Assembly (NCBI RefSeq): GCF_000820005.1
Contig: NZ_CDBL01000007.1
Coordinates: 62,001-126,000, forward strand
DNA length: 64,000 bases
Source of the DNA: Aeromonas piscicola
Lineage (GTDB): Bacteria > Pseudomonadota > Gammaproteobacteria > Enterobacterales > Aeromonadaceae
Reading direction: 5' to 3'
Every line of letters begins with the position of its first letter. Position 1 is the first letter of the stretch. This document shows positions 54,966-64,000 of the stretch, piece by piece. Below the pieces are notes generated by a model. The model did not search any database, was not told the origin of the DNA, and was given only the letters and a program-made list of their open reading frames with translations. A program made the position numbers and the translations under genes.

Positions 54966-54984
54966 CTTGTCTGTGTAGTGGTCA

Positions 54985-55780
<796 letters not shown>

Positions 55781-55940
55781 GAACATCGAAAGCACAGCAG
55801 ACCGGGGGCCTGCTCCCTTAATCGGTCTATCAGCACGTACGTGTGAATTCGTCCGCCATCAAGAGAGCGGTAACGTTTTTTAGAATGTCCTTTTCGCGAT
55901 CTAGCCGGTTGATGCAGGCTTCCAGCTCCTAGATTGTCTG

Positions 55941-56138
55941 CTACTCCGGAGTCAGTGCTTTGCGGATTGAGGTTGTGCTACTGCGTTCGGATTGAAGCTG
56001 CTGAACCCAGCGGTGAAGTACTGTTTCACCAACATCCAGTGAACGGCTGGCTTCGGGGACAGAATATCTCTGGTCAAGTACCAGGGATGCGGCTTCGAAT
56101 TTGAATTCAGCAGTAAATGAGCGACGTAATCTTGTCAT
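55941..56138 (-). pseudogene. IS3-family OrfA, truncated by stop codons
   Basis: It begins MTRLRRSFTAEFKFEAASLVLDQ with a helix-turn-helix (SVPEASRSLDVGETVLHRWVQQL) and stops at TAG after ALTPE, with a second TAG five codons on. The leucine-zipper part (ELEACINRLDREKDILKNVTALL) follows out of translation at about 55925-55860. Confidence 0.8.
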
Positions 56139-56352: not shown

Positions 56353-56631
56353 TTATAAGGTGCATTTTCCTTCATCATCAGCTTCTACGAAGCTGGGGGA
56401 CTGAAGCAATGCTGTGAGCTCTCCTTCCAGCCAGTCGGCTAGCCCTAACCAGTCGTGGCGTTCCTGACAGGCCAGCAAGGCGCTGATTATGGTGACCACC
56501 TCATTATGATGCTCTGAGGGGATGGCTTGCAGCGCCTGTTCAATCAAAGTTGGCAGGAGCAGGGCACTCTCAACGTGATGACCAAGGCGAAAGTTGTGGG
56601 CAAGCGCTTTACACTCTTCTCTAATCTTCAT
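56353..56631 (-). CDS. Small helical protein of unknown function, partner of the Maf-like gene
   Basis: 92 aa, overlapping the Maf-like stop by ATGA, so translationally coupled. It has no signal or membrane segment and is predicted helical (VESALLLPTLIEQALQAIP, EVVTIISALLACQERHDWLGLADWLEGELTALLQS), ending in an acidic tail with a Cys (ADDEGKCTL). I do not recognise the family. Coupling suggests an accessory subunit or chaperone of the transferase. It is the last gene of the pse operon. Confidence 0.6.
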   Translation of the reverse strand: MKIREECKALAHNFRLGHHVESALLLPTLIEQALQAIPSEHHNEVVTIISALLACQERHDWLGLADWLEGELTALLQSPSFVEADDEGKCTL

Positions 56632-57920
56632 TCTACGAACTCCGGGTGATTGCTGCAGCCAAGCAGTGCTGCACCGTCTCGGCTGCAGTTCCAGAACCGC
56701 ACACCTGGATGCGCTGCGATATAACGCTCAAGTTCGATCTGGTAGGTAGTAAAATTGGGATTGGTGCTGACTCGTTTGCCATGTCCATCTAGCACCCAAG
56801 TCAGTGCTTGACTGGCAATAGGGCCGAGCGCTCCATCCTGCCAACCAGTGTGGGTTTGGTCACCGGGGAAAGCGAAATCACAGCCAAGCAAGATGACCTC
56901 TAGGCTACCCATCTTCACTGCTAAATCAACAGTTGGATGGATGACGCTTCCTCCCTGATGTAGTACCCCTCTGGGGTGGGATTGTCGTAACTTGGTATAT
57001 ATAGGGCTAGGAGAATAGGTTACAAGGCGGGGGCCAGGCCAGCTGGATAGAGTGTCATTGGGTACCATGGGAGCATAGACGAGAGGCACATTACCTATTT
57101 CCTGGCTGGCCATCTTGTCCGGGGTTAGAGCATCGTCAATACAGACCACTACATGGGGAGTGATACCATGCCGCCGAAGGGGGGCGAGTGCAGTGTCGAC
57201 ACTGAGTACGAGCCAGTCCGGATGGCGAGCGAGTTGCTTAGCCAGGGTTGGCAGATGCTGTGCCAGAGTTGGGCCACTGGCAATGACCAGAGCGGTAGAG
57301 TCAACTTGTGTTTTAAACAGGCTGGCGACATCCCCATCATGGTGAATATAAGGCAGGTTCTGCTCCAACCGTTCCTTGATCCGGGGTGAGTCCGGATTAA
57401 AGCGTTGACGAACATAACCGGCCATCACTTCGCTCACTAGACGGCCACGGATGCGATATGCGGTATCTTCAGCCAACTCCAGCTCGCTAGGTAGGGCAAA
57501 AAAGGGGAGGGAGATCTCTTGTTCATCCCCCGCCAGCTCCAGATGTACTCTAGGATCTTGCAGCCAGTCATCGTGCTCAAGCAGAGCAAGCACCAGAACA
57601 AAAAGAGAGCGATGCATAATATGTACATGTAGCCTTTTCAGATGCGGACGGGCGAGCAGGACACGCTGTAAGTCCCCGAGCCCAGTACCGTATATGTGCA
57701 ATGTTTGCACTTCGGGAAGGCTCGCTGCCTGTAAATTGGCCTCCGCTACACGGTCATGACGGCTGGTCAGTTGTATGCCGTTAACCAGCAAGGTACTGCC
57801 AGTTCCCTCGCACAACTCCACCTGTAGATCGCCCAATTGCACCTCGGTAAGGATCGCCGCCAAGGCTGGCCAGCGCTGTTCAATTAGCGCTAGGTGATGG
57901 CGTAGCCGCTCTTCATTCAT
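56628..57920 (-). CDS. Second Maf-like (DUF115) putative glycosyltransferase
   Basis: 430 aa from ATG 57920, overlapping the pseI stop. The MAF core is recognisable: TALVIASGPTLAQHLPTLAKQL, VLSVDTALAPLRRHGITPHVVVCIDD, GGSVIHPTVDLAVKMGSLEVILLGCDFAFPG and a late CSRDGAALLG. It is much shorter than Maf-1 (694 aa), lacking the long C-terminal region, with only low similarity. It probably transfers or handles a nonulosonic acid on flagellin or another acceptor. The gene is slightly AT-richer than pseI. Confidence 0.8.
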   Translation of the reverse strand: MNEERLRHHLALIEQRWPALAAILTEVQLGDLQVELCEGTGSTLLVNGIQLTSRHDRVAEANLQAASLPEVQTLHIYGTGLGDLQRVLLARPHLKRLHVHIMHRSLFVLVLALLEHDDWLQDPRVHLELAGDEQEISLPFFALPSELELAEDTAYRIRGRLVSEVMAGYVRQRFNPDSPRIKERLEQNLPYIHHDGDVASLFKTQVDSTALVIASGPTLAQHLPTLAKQLARHPDWLVLSVDTALAPLRRHGITPHVVVCIDDALTPDKMASQEIGNVPLVYAPMVPNDTLSSWPGPRLVTYSPSPIYTKLRQSHPRGVLHQGGSVIHPTVDLAVKMGSLEVILLGCDFAFPGDQTHTGWQDGALGPIASQALTWVLDGHGKRVSTNPNFTTYQIELERYIAAHPGVRFWNCSRDGAALLGCSNHPEFVE

Positions 57921-58959
57921 CTTGTTCAATCCACTCCCAGCTCAGCGGCTGATTGGCTGCCATGTCGCGACTGACCCGCTTGCCGATGATTCGATCGTAA
58001 TCGGCGGGAGGCAGGCCAAGAGCGGGGCGCACCGATTTGATGTGATCTGCGGTGAGCGCCTCTCCGGCCGCAATATCTTTGACCAGATAGAGGGAGCGAC
58101 GAAAGGCGCGGTTGCCCTGCTCGCTCTGGGTGAGCTGATAGTCGGCCACCCCGAGCGCCGCATGGGCGGTGTTGACCGAGGCAATGAGCTCGGTGAGCTC
58201 GACAGGCTCCATGGAGAAGGCGCAATCCGGTCCGCCGTCGGCGCGGGCTAGGGTGAAGTGCTTCTCGATGAGGGTCGCCCCGAGTGCTGTGGCGGCGATG
58301 GCGGTCGCCGACCCCAGAGTGTGATCGGAGAGCCCGACCTCGACGCCAAAGCGCTGGCGCAGCATGGGGATGGTGCGCAGGTTGTATTCGGCCGCGGGCG
58401 CCGGATAGCCGCTGACGCAGTGCAGCAGCGCCAGCTGGCCGCTGCCATGCTTGAGCGCCATCTCGACGGCGGCGGCGATCTCGGCCTCGTTGGCCATGCC
58501 GGTGGACATGATGAGCGGCTTGCCGGTCTGGGCGGCGTAGCGAATGAGGGGCAGATCCACCAGCTCGAAGGAGGCAATCTTGTAGGCCGGGCAGTCGAGA
58601 GATTCCAGCAGGTCCACTGCGCTGAAGTCGAACGGGCTGCTGAACACCGTCAGCCCCAGCTCGCGCCCCTTGGCAAACAGGGCCTGATGCCATTCCCACG
58701 GCGTGTGCGCCCACTCATAGAGGTCATACAGGCTGTGACCATCCCACAGGCCGCCGTGGATCTGGAACTCGGGCCTGTCGCTTTTGAGGGTGATGGTGTC
58801 GGGTCTGTAGGTCTGCAGTTTGACCGCACTGGCCCCGGCCGCCTTGGCGGCGGTCATGATGGCCAGCGCGCGTTCCAGGTTGCCGTTGTGGTTGGCCGAG
58901 AGCTCGGCGATCACGTAGGGCGCCTGCGCCGGGCCTATGGATTGATGGGCGATCTGCAT
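57913..58959 (-). CDS. pseI: Pseudaminic acid synthase PseI (NeuB family)
   Basis: 348 aa. The NeuB TIM barrel shows YVIAELSANHNGNLERAL, AVKLQTYRPDTITLKSD, FSSPFDFSAVDLLESL and GLSDHTLG. A C-terminal SAF (antifreeze-like) domain begins near residue 285 (RSLYLVKDIAAGEALTADHIKSVRP). FSSPFD and the AELSANHNG start favour PseI over sialic or legionaminic synthases. It condenses 2,4-diacetamido-2,4,6-trideoxy-altrose with phosphoenolpyruvate. It follows pseG by 6 bases. Confidence 0.92.
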   Translation of the reverse strand: MQIAHQSIGPAQAPYVIAELSANHNGNLERALAIMTAAKAAGASAVKLQTYRPDTITLKSDRPEFQIHGGLWDGHSLYDLYEWAHTPWEWHQALFAKGRELGLTVFSSPFDFSAVDLLESLDCPAYKIASFELVDLPLIRYAAQTGKPLIMSTGMANEAEIAAAVEMALKHGSGQLALLHCVSGYPAPAAEYNLRTIPMLRQRFGVEVGLSDHTLGSATAIAATALGATLIEKHFTLARADGGPDCAFSMEPVELTELIASVNTAHAALGVADYQLTQSEQGNRAFRRSLYLVKDIAAGEALTADHIKSVRPALGLPPADYDRIIGKRVSRDMAANQPLSWEWIEQDE

Positions 58960-58965
58960 CTGTGG

Positions 58966-60222
58966 TCAGGCTCCTGTGCCAAGTTGCCAGCCTTGCGGCG
59001 CCGGCTGCCAGGGGGCAGGGGGCGCTATCTTGGGTGGCTCGGCAAGATAGAGGGGAAATTGGGAGAAAATTATTTGCAAGCGATGTGCCAGCTCTTGCCA
59101 TTGCTGTGGCGTGAGTGACGGATGAGCCTGCCATACCAGCTGCGGGCCGCACAGGGTCAGGGTAAGCAGATGTTTGTCATCTTGGTGGAACTGCCACTGC
59201 TGGCCGTCAGGTTGTAGCTGGTAATCGGCTTGGGGCAGCAGCCAGGCGGTGAGGCGATCCAGCCCCAGCCCATCCACCTGTTGCTGGCCGCGCTGGCGAT
59301 AGTCATCAGCCTGTCGCTCCAGCCGCTGCAAGGCCTGCATGAGCCGCGCCGGCTCGGCCAGCTCGTCCAGCGTCAGCCGCTCGGCCAGCTGGAAGCGGGC
59401 TATCACTACATCGTTGAACTGCTGGTTGTCGACTATGGGCACTGCCAGGGTCGGCAGACCGAGACAGGCCCGCTCCCAGGTCATGCCGCCGGCGGCGCCG
59501 ATGGTGAAGTCGTGCTGATTCATCAACTGCGCCATCTGATCGCTCTGGCGCAGCAGCGTGATCTTGAGTTCGGGCAACTCGGCCACCCTCTGCTCCAGCT
59601 CGGGCCAGAAGGGGTTGGCGCCGCCTGCCACCAGGGTCCACTGGATGGTTCGCGGCCAGGGCAAGCAGGCCAGACTGTTGAGGGTGGTGAGGCAGGCGCC
59701 GGCCGGGTCGGCGCCGCCGAAGCAGATGAGCCCTCCCTGCCACTGGCTGGTTTGTTGACGTGCCAGTTGGCGATAGGCGGGCCGCAGCAGGGCATAGTCG
59801 GTGCCAAGCAATAGTCGGCAATCGGCCGGGATCAGCGGTTGGTAATCGGCGGCTGTGCGCAGTGGTCCCTGATCCAGCAGCAACTGGCAGTAGTGCGGGC
59901 GATCGGCCAGATCGTCGATCACCAGCAGCTGGTCACAGTGGACCGCCAGTTCTTGTTCGACCACGTGGTCAATTTGGTAGTGATCGAACACCAGCCAATC
60001 GGGCTGCAAGCTGGGCAGCGGGCCGGCGTCGTCCTGTGTGGTCAGAGAGTGGTGGTGATGGGCATGCAGCAGCGGCAGCAGATGCGCGGGCAAGTCGTGG
60101 CAGAGGAAGTGGCACTCGGCCCCCGCCGCCCGTAGCCGATCGGCGATGGCCAGGCAGCGCATCAGGTGGCCCAGCCCGATTTCGGCGCCGGCATCGAGCC
60201 GGAAGGCGACGTTAAACGCCAT
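58966..60222 (-). CDS. pseG: PseG UDP-sugar hydrolase with C-terminal extension
   Basis: 418 aa. The GT-B PseG core has FRLDAGAEIGLGHLMRCLAIADRLR at the start, LVFDHYQID, LVIDDLADRPH, LICFGGADPAG and IGAAGGMTWERACLGLPTL. It releases UDP from UDP-2,4-diacetamido-2,4,6-trideoxy-L-altrose. The last 85 residues or so, after the usual end (LLPQADYQLQPDGQQ...), form a Trp/Gln/Pro-rich tail. It overlaps the pseF stop by 11 bases. Confidence 0.9.
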   Translation of the reverse strand: MAFNVAFRLDAGAEIGLGHLMRCLAIADRLRAAGAECHFLCHDLPAHLLPLLHAHHHHSLTTQDDAGPLPSLQPDWLVFDHYQIDHVVEQELAVHCDQLLVIDDLADRPHYCQLLLDQGPLRTAADYQPLIPADCRLLLGTDYALLRPAYRQLARQQTSQWQGGLICFGGADPAGACLTTLNSLACLPWPRTIQWTLVAGGANPFWPELEQRVAELPELKITLLRQSDQMAQLMNQHDFTIGAAGGMTWERACLGLPTLAVPIVDNQQFNDVVIARFQLAERLTLDELAEPARLMQALQRLERQADDYRQRGQQQVDGLGLDRLTAWLLPQADYQLQPDGQQWQFHQDDKHLLTLTLCGPQLVWQAHPSLTPQQWQELAHRLQIIFSQFPLYLAEPPKIAPPAPWQPAPQGWQLGTGA

Positions 60223-60907
60223 CCTGGCTCAGCACCCGATAGAGCAGTTCGGCCAGGTGCCAGTCTTCCGGCGTATCTATGTCGACCACCCTGTGCCTTG
60301 GCAGAATATGGCCGATCCCTTCCCCACCCACCGGGCTGATCCCCCCCAGCCAGGCTGCGCGGCTGCCCCAGTAGAACTGGCCGGCATCCTGGTAGGCGGG
60401 CTCCAGATCCTGAGAGCGTTGCGCCATCTGCTCCGGCCAGAAGGGGCTGACTCTGCCCTGTGCGTCCATGCGCACCGCCCGCTGGATGGGGAAGCCGAAT
60501 TCGGCCACCGTGTAGACGAAGGGCGCCTGGCTGGCGAGCAGGCGGTCGTGGGCGGCGCTCAGATCGCTGGCCTGAATGAGTGGCACTGTGGCATAGATGC
60601 AGCAGTAGTATTCCGCCTGAATGCCGAGATCGTCGAGTTGCCGGATTGCATCGATCACCACCGGGGTTGTGCCGGTATGATCGTCGGCCAGGCTGGCGGG
60701 GCGCAGGAAGGGCACCTCGGCGCCGAGTTGGCGGGCCAGGTCGGCGATCTCCTCATCATCGGTGGAGACCACAATTCGGCTGAAGCAGCCTGCCGCTCTG
60801 GCCGCTTGAATGGCGTAGGCGAGCATGGGCTGGCCGCAGAAGGGGCGGATATTCTTGCGGGGAATGCGCTTGCTGCTGCCCCGGGCCGGAATGATGGCGA
60901 TGGCCAT
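60212..60907 (-). CDS. pseF: CMP-pseudaminic acid cytidylyltransferase PseF
   Basis: 231 aa. The nucleotidyltransferase signature IAIIPARGSSKRIPRKNI is at the N-terminus; QPMLAYAIQAAR, VSTDDEEIADLARQLGAEVPFLRP and ATVPLIQASDL follow NeuA/PseF. It activates pseudaminic acid with CTP for transfer by Maf. GGGAGAG precedes the ATG. First gene of the minus-strand operon. Confidence 0.93.
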   Translation of the reverse strand: MAIAIIPARGSSKRIPRKNIRPFCGQPMLAYAIQAARAAGCFSRIVVSTDDEEIADLARQLGAEVPFLRPASLADDHTGTTPVVIDAIRQLDDLGIQAEYYCCIYATVPLIQASDLSAAHDRLLASQAPFVYTVAEFGFPIQRAVRMDAQGRVSPFWPEQMAQRSQDLEPAYQDAGQFYWGSRAAWLGGISPVGGEGIGHILPRHRVVDIDTPEDWHLAELLYRVLSQDGV

Positions 60908-61084
60908 GGTGCTCTCTCCCTGAGGGACCCGGCATGGTTACCGGTATGATAATTGATGACAACTATTTGATTATTTTTGATATTATACTGTTTTGCCCTC
61001 TTATATTATCGCTTTTTTTACTACGGAATTATTCCTTGGTGGTCGATAACATGGGCAAGTGATGGGAAGTGGGTGGTATTGAGC
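60908..61084. promoter_or_regulatory. Divergent AT-rich promoter region between pseF and the GNAT gene
   Basis: A strongly AT-rich block (about 60940-61025) stands out from the GC-rich genes and is likely to hold both promoters. I could not define -35/-10 pairs with confidence, nor any sigma-28 site. Confidence 0.5.
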
Positions 61085-61609
61085 ATGAGTTATGGTGTCG
61101 AGCTGCGCCCGGTTCAGCCGTGGGACTTGCCCACACTGAGGCGCTGGCGCAATCAGGATGAGGTACGGCTGCAGATGGTCGAACAGGCGCTCATCTCTCC
61201 CCGCCAGCAGCGGCAGTGGTTTGCCAGCAGCCGTGAGCGGCCGGATCAGCAGCACTGGGTGCTCTGGTGTCGGGGTCAGCGGGCAGGCTACGTCAATCTG
61301 AAGGGGGAAGCGCGCCAGCCATTGCAAGGTCAGCCGGTGGCCGATGCGGGCCTCTATCTGGGCACCTCCAGCGTGCGCCATCCCATGCTGGCCGTTGCCG
61401 CCGCCCTGTCCCAGCTCGATCAGGGTTTCGATACCTTCGAGCTCGGCTGCATCCGCACCCTGGTGCGCACGGGCAACGGCGCCGCCCTGCGCCTGAACGA
61501 GCAGCTGGGTTATCGCCAACATGGGCAGGAGGGCGACTTTCTCGCCCTTGAACTGCAACCCGCCGATTATTATGCCGCCCGTGAACGGCTACGGAGATTT
61601 TTCAGATGA
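61085..61609 (+). CDS. GNAT-family N-acetyltransferase (PseH-like)
   Basis: 174 aa from ATG 61085 (MSYGVELRPVQPWDLPTLRRWRNQDEVRLQM). The start PVQPWDLPTLRRWRN resembles PseH and other amino-sugar acetyltransferases. The C-terminal motif is VRTGNGAALRLNEQLGYRQHG. PseH acetylates the 4-amino group of the UDP-sugar precursor. Next to pse genes that role is likely, but the carrier-protein neighbours raise the possibility that it uses acyl-ACP. The stop overlaps the ACP start (ATGA). Confidence 0.75.
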   Translation: MSYGVELRPVQPWDLPTLRRWRNQDEVRLQMVEQALISPRQQRQWFASSRERPDQQHWVLWCRGQRAGYVNLKGEARQPLQGQPVADAGLYLGTSSVRHPMLAVAAALSQLDQGFDTFELGCIRTLVRTGNGAALRLNEQLGYRQHGQEGDFLALELQPADYYAARERLRRFFR

Positions 61610-61839
61610 CTACAGCGTTGGAACAGGTTTTTGCCGATGCCCTCGGCATAGACGTTGGCACCGTCAGCGACGGGCTGGCTTACAACAGCATTCCCCAGTG
61701 GGACTCCGTCGCCCACATGGGCCTGATCGCCCAGCTGGAGGATTGCTACTGCGTCCTGCTCGATACCGATGACATCATCGACATGAGCTCGGTCGCCAAG
61801 GCGCGGGAGATCCTCGCCAAATACGGGGTCGCCCTCTGA
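61606..61839 (+). CDS. Acyl carrier protein
   Basis: 77 aa. A helical ACP with the phosphopantetheine attachment Ser in QWDSVAHMGLI (Ser about residue 35). The acidic second half is SVAKAREILAK-like. It is specialised, not the fatty acid AcpP, as judged by the WDS motif. It is coupled to the genes on both sides by one-to-four-base overlaps, so it is an integral part of this operon. Confidence 0.9.
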   Translation: MTTALEQVFADALGIDVGTVSDGLAYNSIPQWDSVAHMGLIAQLEDCYCVLLDTDDIIDMSSVAKAREILAKYGVAL

Positions 61840-62588
61840 TGCAGGGGCTGCTGCAGGGCAAGCGGGTACTGATCACGGGGGCCGGGCGCGGCATTGGCCT
61901 CGCCATCGCCCGCCAGTTTGCCGCGCAGGGGGCTGAGCTGTGGCTGGGGGGCCGCGATGAAGCGGCCATGAGTCAGCTGGCGGCCGCCCTCGGCGCCGAG
62001 TTCGGTGTCCCCTGCCAGCCGCTCTGTTTCGATGTGGCCGAGCCGCAGGCGGTCAAGCAGGCCTTTCAGCAGCTGTTTGCCCAGACCCGTCAGCTGGATG
62101 TGCTGGTCAACAATGCCGGTGTGCTGGAAGAGGCCCTGCTTGGCATGGTCAATCAGACGCAGTTGGAGATGACCTTCAGCCACAATACTTTCAGCGTTGT
62201 CTATTGCAGCCAGTATGCCGCCCGCCTGATGCATCGCAGCGGTGGTGGCAGCATCATCAATCTCGCTTCCCTGATGGGACGGGTGGGCGCCGCCGGGCTC
62301 AGCAGCTATGCCGGCAGCAAGGCGGCGGTGATCGGCATCACCCAGTCACTGGCCAAAGAGCTGGCAGCCAGCCAGATCCGGGTCAACGCCATCGCCCCCG
62401 GCTTCATCGATACCGAAATGGCGCGTGCCATCCCGGACCAGAAGTTCGCCGAGCGTCTCGCCAGCATCGCCATGGGGCGGATCGGCACGCCGGACGAGGT
62501 GGCCAAGGTAGCGCTGTTCCTCGCCTCCGACCTGTCGAGTTACGTGACCGGTCAGGTCATAGGTGTGGATGGAGGCATGTTGGTCTGA
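61839..62588 (+). CDS. Short-chain dehydrogenase, FabG-like 3-oxoacyl-ACP reductase
   Basis: 249 aa. The NAD(P)-binding GAGRGIGLAIARQF, NNAG at about 90, Ser in NLASLMGRVG and YxxxK in SYAGSKAAV form a complete SDR active site. C-terminal SYVTGQVIGVDGGM matches FabG. It probably reduces an acyl group held on the adjacent ACP. It overlaps both neighbours. Confidence 0.88.
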   Translation: MQGLLQGKRVLITGAGRGIGLAIARQFAAQGAELWLGGRDEAAMSQLAAALGAEFGVPCQPLCFDVAEPQAVKQAFQQLFAQTRQLDVLVNNAGVLEEALLGMVNQTQLEMTFSHNTFSVVYCSQYAARLMHRSGGGSIINLASLMGRVGAAGLSSYAGSKAAVIGITQSLAKELAASQIRVNAIAPGFIDTEMARAIPDQKFAERLASIAMGRIGTPDEVAKVALFLASDLSSYVTGQVIGVDGGMLV

Positions 62589-63958
62589 TGAAGCAACTTC
62601 ATCCTCTACTCGCTCATCTGCATGAGGATAACCCGGCGCCGGCCTGGCGGGATCTGCTGGATGGCTGGCTCTCCTACGGCGAGCTGGCACATCGGGTGAC
62701 ACAAGTGGCGGCGACTTACCCGAGTGAGCGCAGCCTCGTCTATCTGCCCTTCTTCACCCGTACCACCCATCTGCTGCATTATCTGGCCGCCCTCAGGCTG
62801 GGACATGCAGTTATGCTGGCGGATCCCGCCCTGCCATTGGTCCAGCATCAGACCTGCTGCCAGCAGTTCGCCGTGACCTGCCGGGTAAATGAAGAAGGAG
62901 AGTTGATCCGTCTCAGGGATACCAGCCCGCTGTTGCACCCCGAGCTGGCGGTGTTGCTGCCTACCTCGGGCAGCACGGGCAGTGCCAAGTGGGTGCGCCT
63001 CTCGGGCCGCAATCTGGCGGCCAACGCTGCTTCCATCGCCGACTATCTGGCGCTGACGACGACTGAACGAGCCATCACCAGCCTGCCGCTGTTCTACTCC
63101 TATGGCCTCTCGGTGCTCAACAGTCATCTGCTGGTGGGCGCCTCCCTGGTGCAAAGCGAGGGGAGCGTGCTGGATCGCACCTTCTGGCAGCAGGTCGAGC
63201 AGCATGGCGTGAGCAGTTTTGCCGGGGTGCCCTTTACCTATCAGATGCTGGCCCGGCTGCGCTTTGACTGGGCCCGGTATCCCTCCCTGCAGACCCTGAC
63301 CCAGGCAGGGGGACGACTCGAACCCGTGCTGGCGCAGCAGTTTGCCGAACAGGCCCTGCGGCTGGGGCGCCGTTTCTTCGTCATGTATGGCCAGACAGAG
63401 GCGACGGCGCGCATGGCCTGGCTGGCGGCGCACGAGGTGGTCACCCATCCGGATGCCATCGGCCGGGCCATTCCCGGCGGCCACTTCTCCCTGCGCGAGC
63501 TGGAGGGTGGCAAACCCGGGGAGGGTGAGCTGGTCTATCGCGGTGACAACGTCATGCTGGGCTATGCCAGTGCCGCCGAGGATTTGGCGCAGGGAGCCCT
63601 GTTGCAAGAGCTGGCCACCGGCGATCTGGCCCGCAGTGACGAGGCGGGCCGTTACTACATCTGCGGTCGTCTCAGTCGTTTTCTCAAGTTGTTTGGCAAG
63701 CGTGTCAGTCTGGCGGAGGTCGAGAGCCAGCTTCATCGCTGGGGCTGGTCGGGAGCCTGCGGTGGGCGTGATGACTGCCTGCTGGTGGTCGTCGAACCCC
63801 ATGGCGAACTGACGGCTGACGGGTTGCAGCGCGAGCTTGCGCAGTGGCTGCAGGCACCGCCACGAGCGGTGCGGGTGATGCAGATGGCACAGCTGCCGCG
63901 TACCGTCAACCACAAGATTGACTATGCTGCCCTGACCAGACTGGCGGAGGAGGCGTGA
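62588..63958 (+). CDS. AMP-forming acyl ligase (ANL superfamily)
   Basis: 456 aa from ATG 62588; overlaps the SDR stop (TGATG). Adenylate-forming motifs are LLPTSGSTGSAKWVRLS (P-loop), YGQTEATARM (A5) and ATGDLARSDEAG plus GRLSRFLKLFGKRVSL (A7/A8). The C-terminal subdomain ends TVNHKIDYAALTRL with the catalytic Lys region. It would load a carboxylic acid onto the ACP or CoA. Homologs occur in nonulosonic acid and flagellar glycosylation clusters. Confidence 0.85.
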   Translation: MKQLHPLLAHLHEDNPAPAWRDLLDGWLSYGELAHRVTQVAATYPSERSLVYLPFFTRTTHLLHYLAALRLGHAVMLADPALPLVQHQTCCQQFAVTCRVNEEGELIRLRDTSPLLHPELAVLLPTSGSTGSAKWVRLSGRNLAANAASIADYLALTTTERAITSLPLFYSYGLSVLNSHLLVGASLVQSEGSVLDRTFWQQVEQHGVSSFAGVPFTYQMLARLRFDWARYPSLQTLTQAGGRLEPVLAQQFAEQALRLGRRFFVMYGQTEATARMAWLAAHEVVTHPDAIGRAIPGGHFSLRELEGGKPGEGELVYRGDNVMLGYASAAEDLAQGALLQELATGDLARSDEAGRYYICGRLSRFLKLFGKRVSLAEVESQLHRWGWSGACGGRDDCLLVVVEPHGELTADGLQRELAQWLQAPPRAVRVMQMAQLPRTVNHKIDYAALTRLAEEA

Positions 63959-64000
63959 TGGAAAGTTTGCTCGCCGCCCCCATCTTCGACCTGCCCCAGG
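63958..64000 (+). CDS. Next gene of the acyl module, 5' end only (possibly LuxE-like)
   Basis: ATG 63958 overlaps the ligase stop (TGATG). The 14 visible residues MESLLAAPIFDLPQ are too few to identify it. A LuxE-like acyl-protein synthetase is common at this position in related clusters, which is only an expectation. Confidence 0.4.
   Translation, partial: MESLLAAPIFDLPQ

Follow-up and report, generated by a model that had tools for sequence, protein, structure and literature searches.

A carrier-protein module with LuxE- and LuxC-like enzymes probably builds a small unusual acyl group for the flagellar sugar of Aeromonas piscicola

At the right end of a 64,000-nucleotide stretch of Aeromonas piscicola DNA (bases 62001-126000 of contig NZ_CDBL01000007.1, assembly GCF_000820005.1, host genome 5.18 Mb; hereafter the window), genes for pseudaminic acid (Pse) biosynthesis are divergent from an operon encoding a PseH-like GNAT, an acyl carrier protein (ACP), a FabG-like short-chain dehydrogenase (SDR), a short AMP-forming ligase and LuxE- and LuxC-like proteins. 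The five genes from ACP to LuxC are called the module below; the operon probably builds a small unusual acid group and puts it on the flagellar sugar. The observations behind this are the genes themselves, their order and coupling, intact catalytic residues, recurrence of the module and the lack of a PseH recognised by its model alongside it. In its full form the best explanation, to which we give an even chance, is that the operon is a supply line for a short hydroxyacyl group which the GNAT attaches to pseudaminic acid. That a short acyl group other than acetyl sits on N-7 of pseudaminic acid we regard as likely, its assignment as C4H6O3 falls a little short of even, and the route by carboxyl reduction is somewhat more doubtful. 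The gene set is already known as Flagellar Glycosylation Island (FGI) Group II; new here is evidence on its function.

The preliminary description of the window had placed PseF, PseG, PseI and a Maf-like protein divergent from genes for GNAT, ACP, SDR and AMP ligase plus one coupled gene, and open reading frames (ORFs) and family matches confirmed all of this. When the sequence was extended rightwards, as had been proposed there, the coupled gene turned out to be luxE-like and was followed by a luxC-like gene, a gene in the place of fgi-1, glycan genes and pseC. On the plus strand the operon comprises genes for the GNAT (61085..61609, 174 amino acids), a proposed acyl-ACP:amino-sugar N-acyltransferase; the ACP (61606..61839, 77 amino acids; attachment Ser34 in WDSxxHM); the SDR (61839..62588, 249 amino acids; S144-Y157-K161); the ligase (62588..63958, 456 amino acids; catalytic Lys443), a proposed acid:ACP ligase; the LuxE-like acyl-protein synthetase (63955-65016, crossing the window edge at 64000; 353 amino acids); and, past the window, the LuxC-like reductase (64995-66200, 401 amino acids). 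All six lie in overlapping frames. As described before, the overlaps are of a few bases: 4 for GNAT/ACP, 1 each for ACP/SDR and SDR/ligase, and 4 or 1 for ligase/LuxE, depending on whether LuxE starts at GTG or ATG. For the GNAT the most likely start is ATG 61085 and not TTG 60977, because relatives align from the former and because stops interrupt 5 of the 14 closest Aeromonas copies when the match is drawn from the upstream start.

Several members stood below the curated cut-offs of the families that they resemble. The ACP reached 14.3 bits with the Pfam PP-binding model (cut-off 20.8), and despite this its attachment serine was invariant in the alignment described below; the SDR stayed below the cut-offs of all FabG equivalogs listed in its 25 best rows. 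LuxE belongs to its family by PF04443 (135 bits) and a conserved C-terminal acyl-acceptor cysteine, Cys348, and LuxC by the Pfam LuxC domain PF05893 (85 bits) and active-site Cys246. With the equivalogs of luminescence they scored 57.6 bits (LuxE, NF052244, threshold 550) and 39.5 bits (LuxC, NF052251, threshold 750). The closest named match of LuxE among those listed, from which records near the own genome may be excluded, was Aeromonas bestiarum CECT 4227 (96%).

The same order has been catalogued as FGI Group II (98 Aeromonas strains; Forn-Cuni et al. 2021, PMC7874193), with orf1-3, luxE, luxC and fgi-1 after pseH and maf-2 after pseI. In the excerpts of that paper available to us the five genes are tied to the chemistry of fatty aldehydes or fatty acids, and a 'liposugar' is suggested; excerpts of De Maayer and Cowan (2016, PMC4875605) make the same suggestion for the same gene kinds in Enterobacteriaceae islands, e.g. 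LuxE in 73 strains. In gene kinds and order the present locus matches Group II as represented, in the excerpts, by A. piscicola AH-3 and A. hydrophila ATCC 7966. The pseBC genes lie at one end and pseHFGI at the other, with pseC recognised by family and the divergent GNAT in the pseH place; genes for ACP, 3-oxoacyl-ACP reductase, AMP synthetase, luxE and luxC precede fgi-1, which was assigned from place, length and mass. As in subgroup IIA, maf-2 follows pseI and the island lies beside maf-1 of polar flagellum region 2. Gene pseC (82290-83417, minus strand; TIGR03588, 534 bits) was found 18 kb past the window edge, so its absence from the window had been described correctly; the next gene, cut by the end of the stretch, was assigned as pseB from its ORF and place alone. 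Fgi-1 has 327 amino acids both here (37.49 kDa, pI 5.03) and in AH-3 (37.44 kDa, pI 4.98), and the AH-3 flagellin peptide, as excerpted, differs from the one here in one residue. AH-3 is another strain, with a genome of 4.89 Mb against 5.18 Mb here. The genes between fgi-1 and pseC vary within Group II; in the present island this section encodes methyltransferases, a GLF plus glycosyltransferase protein and a phosphoramidate-like set. The G+C content was 61-64% in the pse genes and the adjoining module and 32-47% between fgi-1 and pseC, which suggests that the module stands apart from a recently changing section.

The first line of functional evidence concerns the GNAT. It scored 43.5 bits (43.8 in the genome scan) with the PseH equivalog TIGR03585, the cut-off of which is 93.1 bits; judged by this curated sequence model, it is not a PseH. 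The genome scan found no protein above that cut-off elsewhere in the same genome. Among 37 Aeromonas genomes, LuxE orthologues occurred in 16 (a further match of 22 bits, in G009, was not counted), and proteins at least 58% identical to the window GNAT occurred in 14, all of them within these 16. PseH above the cut-off was present in 11 of the 37; none of these 11 had LuxE, as against 16 of the remaining 26 (Fisher p 0.0006, kinship ignored). A loop with a glycine (RGxG or LG), which in GNATs binds coenzyme A (CoA), kept this glycine in 11 canonical Aeromonas PseH proteins and lacked it in 33 module-linked GNATs, in an alignment judged by eye. One branch (support 90/100; found in 92% of 200 bootstrap trees) separated the module GNATs from the canonical PseH proteins, in a tree with long branches, an unsettled bootstrap, a deciding branch below 95 and canonical PseH rows from Aeromonas only.

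The window GNAT, whose structure model is confident (pLDDT 94.4), was compared with solved relatives. By profile the nearest were Campylobacter jejuni PseH (2.9e-19) and FdhC (1.7e-13), and by structure SpeG (Z 21.2, root-mean-square deviation (rmsd) 2.0, 156 residues aligned), FdhC (Z 20.9, rmsd 2.2, 167 aligned) and Helicobacter pylori PseH (4ri1; Z 20.8, rmsd 2.1, 161 aligned). The window GNAT thus shares with PseH (TIGR03585; 4xpk, 4ri1) its place in the pathway, its fold and its best profile match, but differs in its model score, loop and branch of the tree. With FdhC (5ktc) it shares the GNAT fold and a profile match, and the entry title names a hydroxybutanoyl product, a hydroxyacyl group on an amino sugar; FdhC acts on another sugar, its structure contains CoA, and we know of no carrier-protein module for it.

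The second line is the recurrence of the module. From a scan of bacterial and archaeal genomes, 80 loci were kept as the best LuxE matches, in which LuxE is present by construction; stretches L070-L089, in which the same contigs often recurred, did not enter the counts. In 63 of the 80, ACP, SDR, ligase and LuxC all lay on the strand of LuxE with midpoints within 4.5 kb, and 51 of these 63 had the order ACP-SDR-ligase-LuxE-LuxC. The ligase-LuxE and LuxE-LuxC joins were mostly overlapping or abutting, as measured from longest reading frames, which perhaps overstates overlap. Record titles place the loci in gamma-, alpha-, beta- and epsilonproteobacteria, in a Desulfocapsa bin, in clostridia and in Sporosarcina. 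With LuxC as bait (12 stretches with matches of 85-100 bits, two of them, to judge by length, contigs shared with the LuxE set), LuxE stood beside LuxC in 12/12 and all five genes were present in 9/12. The module is therefore portable: its five genes recur together across phyla.

Catalytic residues were kept almost throughout in the 63 loci and the window: the ACP serine, the SDR serine, tyrosine and lysine and the LuxE cysteine in 64/64 each, the ligase lysine in 63/64 (one X) and the LuxC cysteine in 62/62 (two gaps). Ligase and LuxE are fused in two loci of one genus (L224, L231) and LuxE and LuxC in one (L226), and these fusions tie the LuxE, LuxC and ligase steps together; the fusion proteins have 877, 935 and 773 amino acids, respectively. 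Among solved structures at E 0.1, 7xc6, whose chains are named LuxE and long-chain acyl-protein thioester reductase, was the only match of LuxC and the better of two for LuxE. As in this fatty acid reductase, the acyl-acceptor and active-site cysteines are kept in the module proteins, but the module LuxC is shorter (401 versus 477 amino acids) and keeps the company of ACP, ligase, SDR and sugar genes. The best solved match of the ligase was oxalate-CoA ligase (1.6e-21), with feruloyl-CoA synthetase and many others near.

Amino-sugar N-acyltransferases are frequent neighbours of the module. PseI-like genes (>100 bits) lay inside 44 of the 80 stretches, 35 of which also had the GNAT. In 61/80 loci phmmer, with GNAT and hexapeptide queries drawn from the loci themselves, placed a transferase of one of these types no more than 8 kb from LuxE, and in 54/80 a DegT or NeuB protein lay within the same distance. 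At E 1e-5 the same queries had no match in the 64-kb window outside this locus. Among 20 neighbours in PseI-less loci there were ten hexapeptide acyltransferases (PF00132, some with PglD_N), one GNAT and one DegT aminotransferase; the other eight were two transketolase subunits, a thioesterase, a sugar transferase, a methyltransferase, an integrase, an Lcl_C protein and one protein without a family.

From this we infer the reactions, the substrate and the position on the sugar. LuxE would adenylate one carboxyl of a small diacid, for which malate is the best guess, and take the acyl group onto its own cysteine. LuxC would reduce the LuxE-borne thioester to an aldehyde and the SDR would reduce the aldehyde to an alcohol, after which the hydroxy acid so formed, dihydroxybutyrate (acyl C4H6O3), would be coupled to the ACP by the AMP ligase. 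Acting on the loaded ACP, the PseH-like GNAT would then pass the acyl group to the 4-amino group of UDP-4-amino-4,6-dideoxy-L-AltNAc, and after PseG, PseI and PseF the sugar would be Pse5Ac7(C4H6O3). The sum of these steps would yield an omega-hydroxyacyl group, which is dihydroxybutyryl if malate is the diacid. Each enzyme class carries out such a step in known systems. The order of steps is proposed because of the enzyme families and a parallel in Vibrio cholerae, and the acceptor position because of the place of PseH in the pathway, where this position is established for PseH itself. According to the preliminary description, a ligase loading the ACP, a FabG-like reductase and a transferase would suffice for a hydroxyacyl group. 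These four genes are present, but LuxE and LuxC complete the module and point to carboxylate reduction instead of a plain 3-oxoacyl reduction.

In V. cholerae O1, RfbN is LuxC-like, RfbM is an iron alcohol dehydrogenase, the place of which would be taken here by the SDR, and RfbO is a transferase. By gene kind, counterparts of the O1 set appear to be present here, with the SDR as dehydrogenase and LuxE as an extra. Excerpts of PMC3441752 and PMC12208996 describe perosamine acylated with 3-deoxy-L-glycero-tetronate, the 2,4-isomer of dihydroxybutyryl, together with a dedicated ligase, RfbL/WbeL (471 amino acids), and the carrier RfbK. In this tetronate pathway (rfbKLMNO / wbe), as in the proposed one, a carrier and a short AMP ligase are assigned to the supply of C4H6O3 for an amino sugar; in O1 the acceptor is perosamine in the O antigen.

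The third line of evidence comes from published glycan masses. For AH-3, a Group II strain, the excerpts of PMC7874193 report a polar flagellin glycan of 1491.5 Da in total, made up of a 376.14 Da pseudaminic acid derivative, two hexoses, three N-acetylhexosamines (HexNAc; one phosphorylated) and a 102 Da moiety to which no identity is given. The fgi-1 mutant has lost the distal glycan together with the 102 Da moiety and retains just the 376 Da sugar, so that the extra 60 Da sits on Pse itself. We calculated 316.127 for Pse5Ac7Ac and 376.148 when one acetyl is replaced by C4H6O3, which corresponds to dihydroxybutyryl; C4H6O3 itself is 102.032, and with this group as the 102 Da moiety too the full glycan comes to 1491.490. 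Excerpts of PMC9290775 report plain Pse5Ac7Ac (m/z 317.1) for A. caviae Sch3. The earlier suggestion that the flagellar nonulosonic acid bears a non-acetyl group delivered by a carrier is thus supported indirectly, by the GNAT falling short of the PseH model, by module genomes without a PseH above the cut-off and by 376.14 in AH-3 against 316.13; overall, the earlier observation is confirmed and its interpretation partly supported and extended.

Several points weigh against this explanation. Two other GNATs of the same genome outscored the window GNAT with the PseH model (58.5 and 58.0 bits, far below the cut-off). Two of the 16 LuxE genomes, G021 and G023, had GNATs at 24-28% identity whose PseH scores, 92.4 and 85 bits, narrowly miss the cut-off, and they blur the contrast; in tree and loop these (as L099 and L092) group with the module GNATs. 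Structure was rejected as a judge between PseH and FdhC, the Z values being tied with SpeG too, and the missing loop glycine was rejected as proof of ACP use, FdhC also lacking the glycine in the alignment and containing CoA in entry 5ktc. In 19/80 loci, several on short contigs, no N-acyltransferase lay within 8 kb. The LuxE and LuxC proteins of luminous bacteria act, by their family names, on long-chain acids. No V. cholerae O1-type rfbKLMNO locus was found with the LuxC family in 394 genomes of the order or with the ligase in 227 genomes of one genus, and the V. cholerae parallel therefore rests on literature and general knowledge. For the LuxC family, 12 stretches at 85-100 bits, a minority of the matches, were examined, and the ten strongest matches (at least 298 bits) were not among them; the ligase matched in 19/227 genomes at 1e-20, and of the four strongest, three adjoined LuxE and LuxC and one (L219) neither. 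No LuxC without LuxE was seen among the 16 stretches examined.

The masses also have a side that speaks against C4H6O3 as dihydroxybutyryl on Pse. O-methylglyceroyl, or two hydroxypropionyl or lactoyl groups, give 376.148 as well, and mass alone cannot identify the acyl group. A. hydrophila AH-1 carries a 403 Da pseudaminic acid-like sugar (excerpts of PMC4691044); it has no glycosyltransferase genes between its pse genes (excerpts of PMC7874193) and presumably lacks the Group II island, so odd Pse masses arise otherwise. That Sch3 lacks the module is presumed from its description as a simple system. The AH-3 masses were all published by a single set of authors, and a related article by them was retracted over images (PMC12063808); the retraction notice says nothing of mass spectra and lists PMC4284686, where the 376 and 102 Da values appear again, as sharing images. 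The 2012 source of the values is known through its citation, and the 2021 spectra as described in excerpts.

One alternative, which we consider unlikely, is that the target of the module is the 102 Da moiety, a distal sugar, rather than pseudaminic acid, while the GNAT is an ordinary acetyltransferase and the 376 Da mass stems from another modification. The moiety has the mass of C4H6O3 and disappears together with the distal glycan when fgi-1 is mutated, and AH-1 has an odd Pse mass, presumably without the module. Yet the operon begins with the GNAT gene, no PseH scores above the cut-off elsewhere in the genome, and the sugar left alone in the fgi-1 mutant still carries the additional 60 Da, which places it on Pse.

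Rather improbable is that the same machinery delivers other acyl groups, namely an O-methylglyceroyl made with a methyltransferase, or a C3 hydroxyacyl (3-hydroxypropionyl or lactoyl) at each of N-5 and N-7. Formula and mass would be identical, and S-adenosylmethionine (SAM) methyltransferases are encoded further along the island. However, N-5 of pseudaminic acid derives from UDP-GlcNAc, and its group would need a second exchange, while no methyltransferase is found among the six operon genes.

Quite unlikely is the published view that these genes direct fatty acids into a fatty aldehyde or into the lipid part of a glycan. LuxE and LuxC are by family name parts of a fatty acid reductase, and the liposugar has been stated for Aeromonas and for Enterobacteriaceae (excerpts of PMC7874193 and PMC4875605); against it, Pse derivative, hexoses, HexNAc, phosphate and the 102 Da group use up the AH-3 mass fully and leave no room for a long acyl chain, and the module is often accompanied by amino-sugar N-acyltransferases. 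Slightly less probable still is a side branch in which LuxE and LuxC make aldehyde, or oxidise aldehyde to thioester, unrelated to the ACP-borne group: no biochemistry for these module members turned up in the literature passages searched, but the gene order recurs across phyla and ligase-LuxE and LuxE-LuxC fusions occur.

Returning to the short hydroxyacyl supply line, a wider claim is more speculative than its parts. The module may be an unnamed portable five-gene pathway, found from proteobacteria to clostridia, which turns small diacids by carboxylate reduction into omega-hydroxyacyl-ACP for whichever amino-sugar N-acyltransferase adjoins it, with one C4H6O3 group in Aeromonas behind both the 376 and the 102 Da masses. 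In the literature examined, the AH-3 376 Da sugar, the 102 Da moiety and the lux-like island genes are left unexplained or ascribed to fatty-acid chemistry or a 'liposugar'; if the claim is true, one acyl group and one module account for all three, and the module would be a widespread means by which bacteria equip their surfaces with unusual N-acyl sugars. The same functional proposal was not found among the matches listed in literature searches, which mostly covered papers outside subscription. The available excerpts of PMC7371886 and PMC13317340 mention no such module. In Yersinia ruckeri the excerpts of PMC5552943 describe a legionaminic acid cluster in which no acyl module is visible, and the sfm cluster of Shewanella oneidensis (excerpts of PMC3765264) has a different gene set, with mono-N-acetyl Pse of 274 Da bearing a 236-264 Da substituent. 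In three loci from our scans (L126, L169, L222), parts of the module are accompanied by a divergent NeuB (phmmer) and by an ORF of roughly 600 amino acids that by eye resembles a thiamine diphosphate-dependent enzyme, an arrangement that recalls the sfm cluster. Transketolase subunit genes (pyrimidine-binding and C-terminal domains) lie near the module in two clostridial bins (L158, L165), and Maf-like proteins of about 1170-1210 amino acids stand beside module genes in L225, L230 and L234; Maf-1 of the window has 694.

The remaining genes of the locus are on the minus strand. Following an intergenic region of 41% G+C (60908..61084), with one weak sigma-70-like match in 60850-61150 (0.4 expected), they are pseF for CMP-pseudaminic acid synthetase (60212..60907; TIGR03584, 329 bits), pseG for a UDP-sugar hydrolase with a C-terminal extension (58966..60222), pseI for pseudaminic acid synthase (57913..58959; TIGR03586, 500 bits, cut-off 340) and a maf-2-like gene (56628..57929, 433 amino acids), with an MptE-like domain (PF01973, 110 bits) and 34 bits with FlagModPseD, far under its cut-off. 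An ORF of 92 amino acids (56353-56631), with no Pfam family above the cut-off, overlaps maf-2; relatives were found in 26 ORFs of the fetched loci, self and duplicates counted, and the places shown adjoin maf-2. Between maf-1 and the island, at 54982-56138, are ORFs that look transposase-like by eye. The PseG protein has 418 amino acids, of which the PseG model (TIGR03590, 295 bits) covers residues 4-271, and the last Pfam domain ends at 313. Relatives of residues 272-418 were found in 27 ORFs of the fetched loci, with self and twice-fetched genomes counted, and the 20 shown belong to module-bearing Aeromonas islands. The extension may be a decayed transferase domain; chimeric PseG-PseH proteins are mentioned in excerpts of PMC7874193.

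Just before pseC, at 77202-82258, lies a set of genes for an APS-kinase-like protein (NF004041, 180 bits, above the cut-off), a methyltransferase, a nucleotidyltransferase, a PRK05849-type phosphoenolpyruvate (PEP)-synthase-like protein (954 bits, cut-off 501) and a gamma-glutamyl-CDP-amidate hydrolase-like amidotransferase (98.6 bits, under the cut-off of 250). Genes of these kinds are known from the O-methyl phosphoramidate pathway of Campylobacter, and here they sit within an island for flagellar glycosylation. Among the matches listed in a literature search, none had a title that dealt with phosphoramidate on the flagella of Aeromonas, and the +80 increment of the AH-3 HexNAc, as reported in the excerpts, matches phosphate and not phosphoramidate. 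Relatives of the PEP-synthase-like protein occurred in 5 of the 37 Aeromonas genomes (100, 90, 57, 37 and 37% identity), every one on the contig of LuxE, about 6 to 21 kb away.

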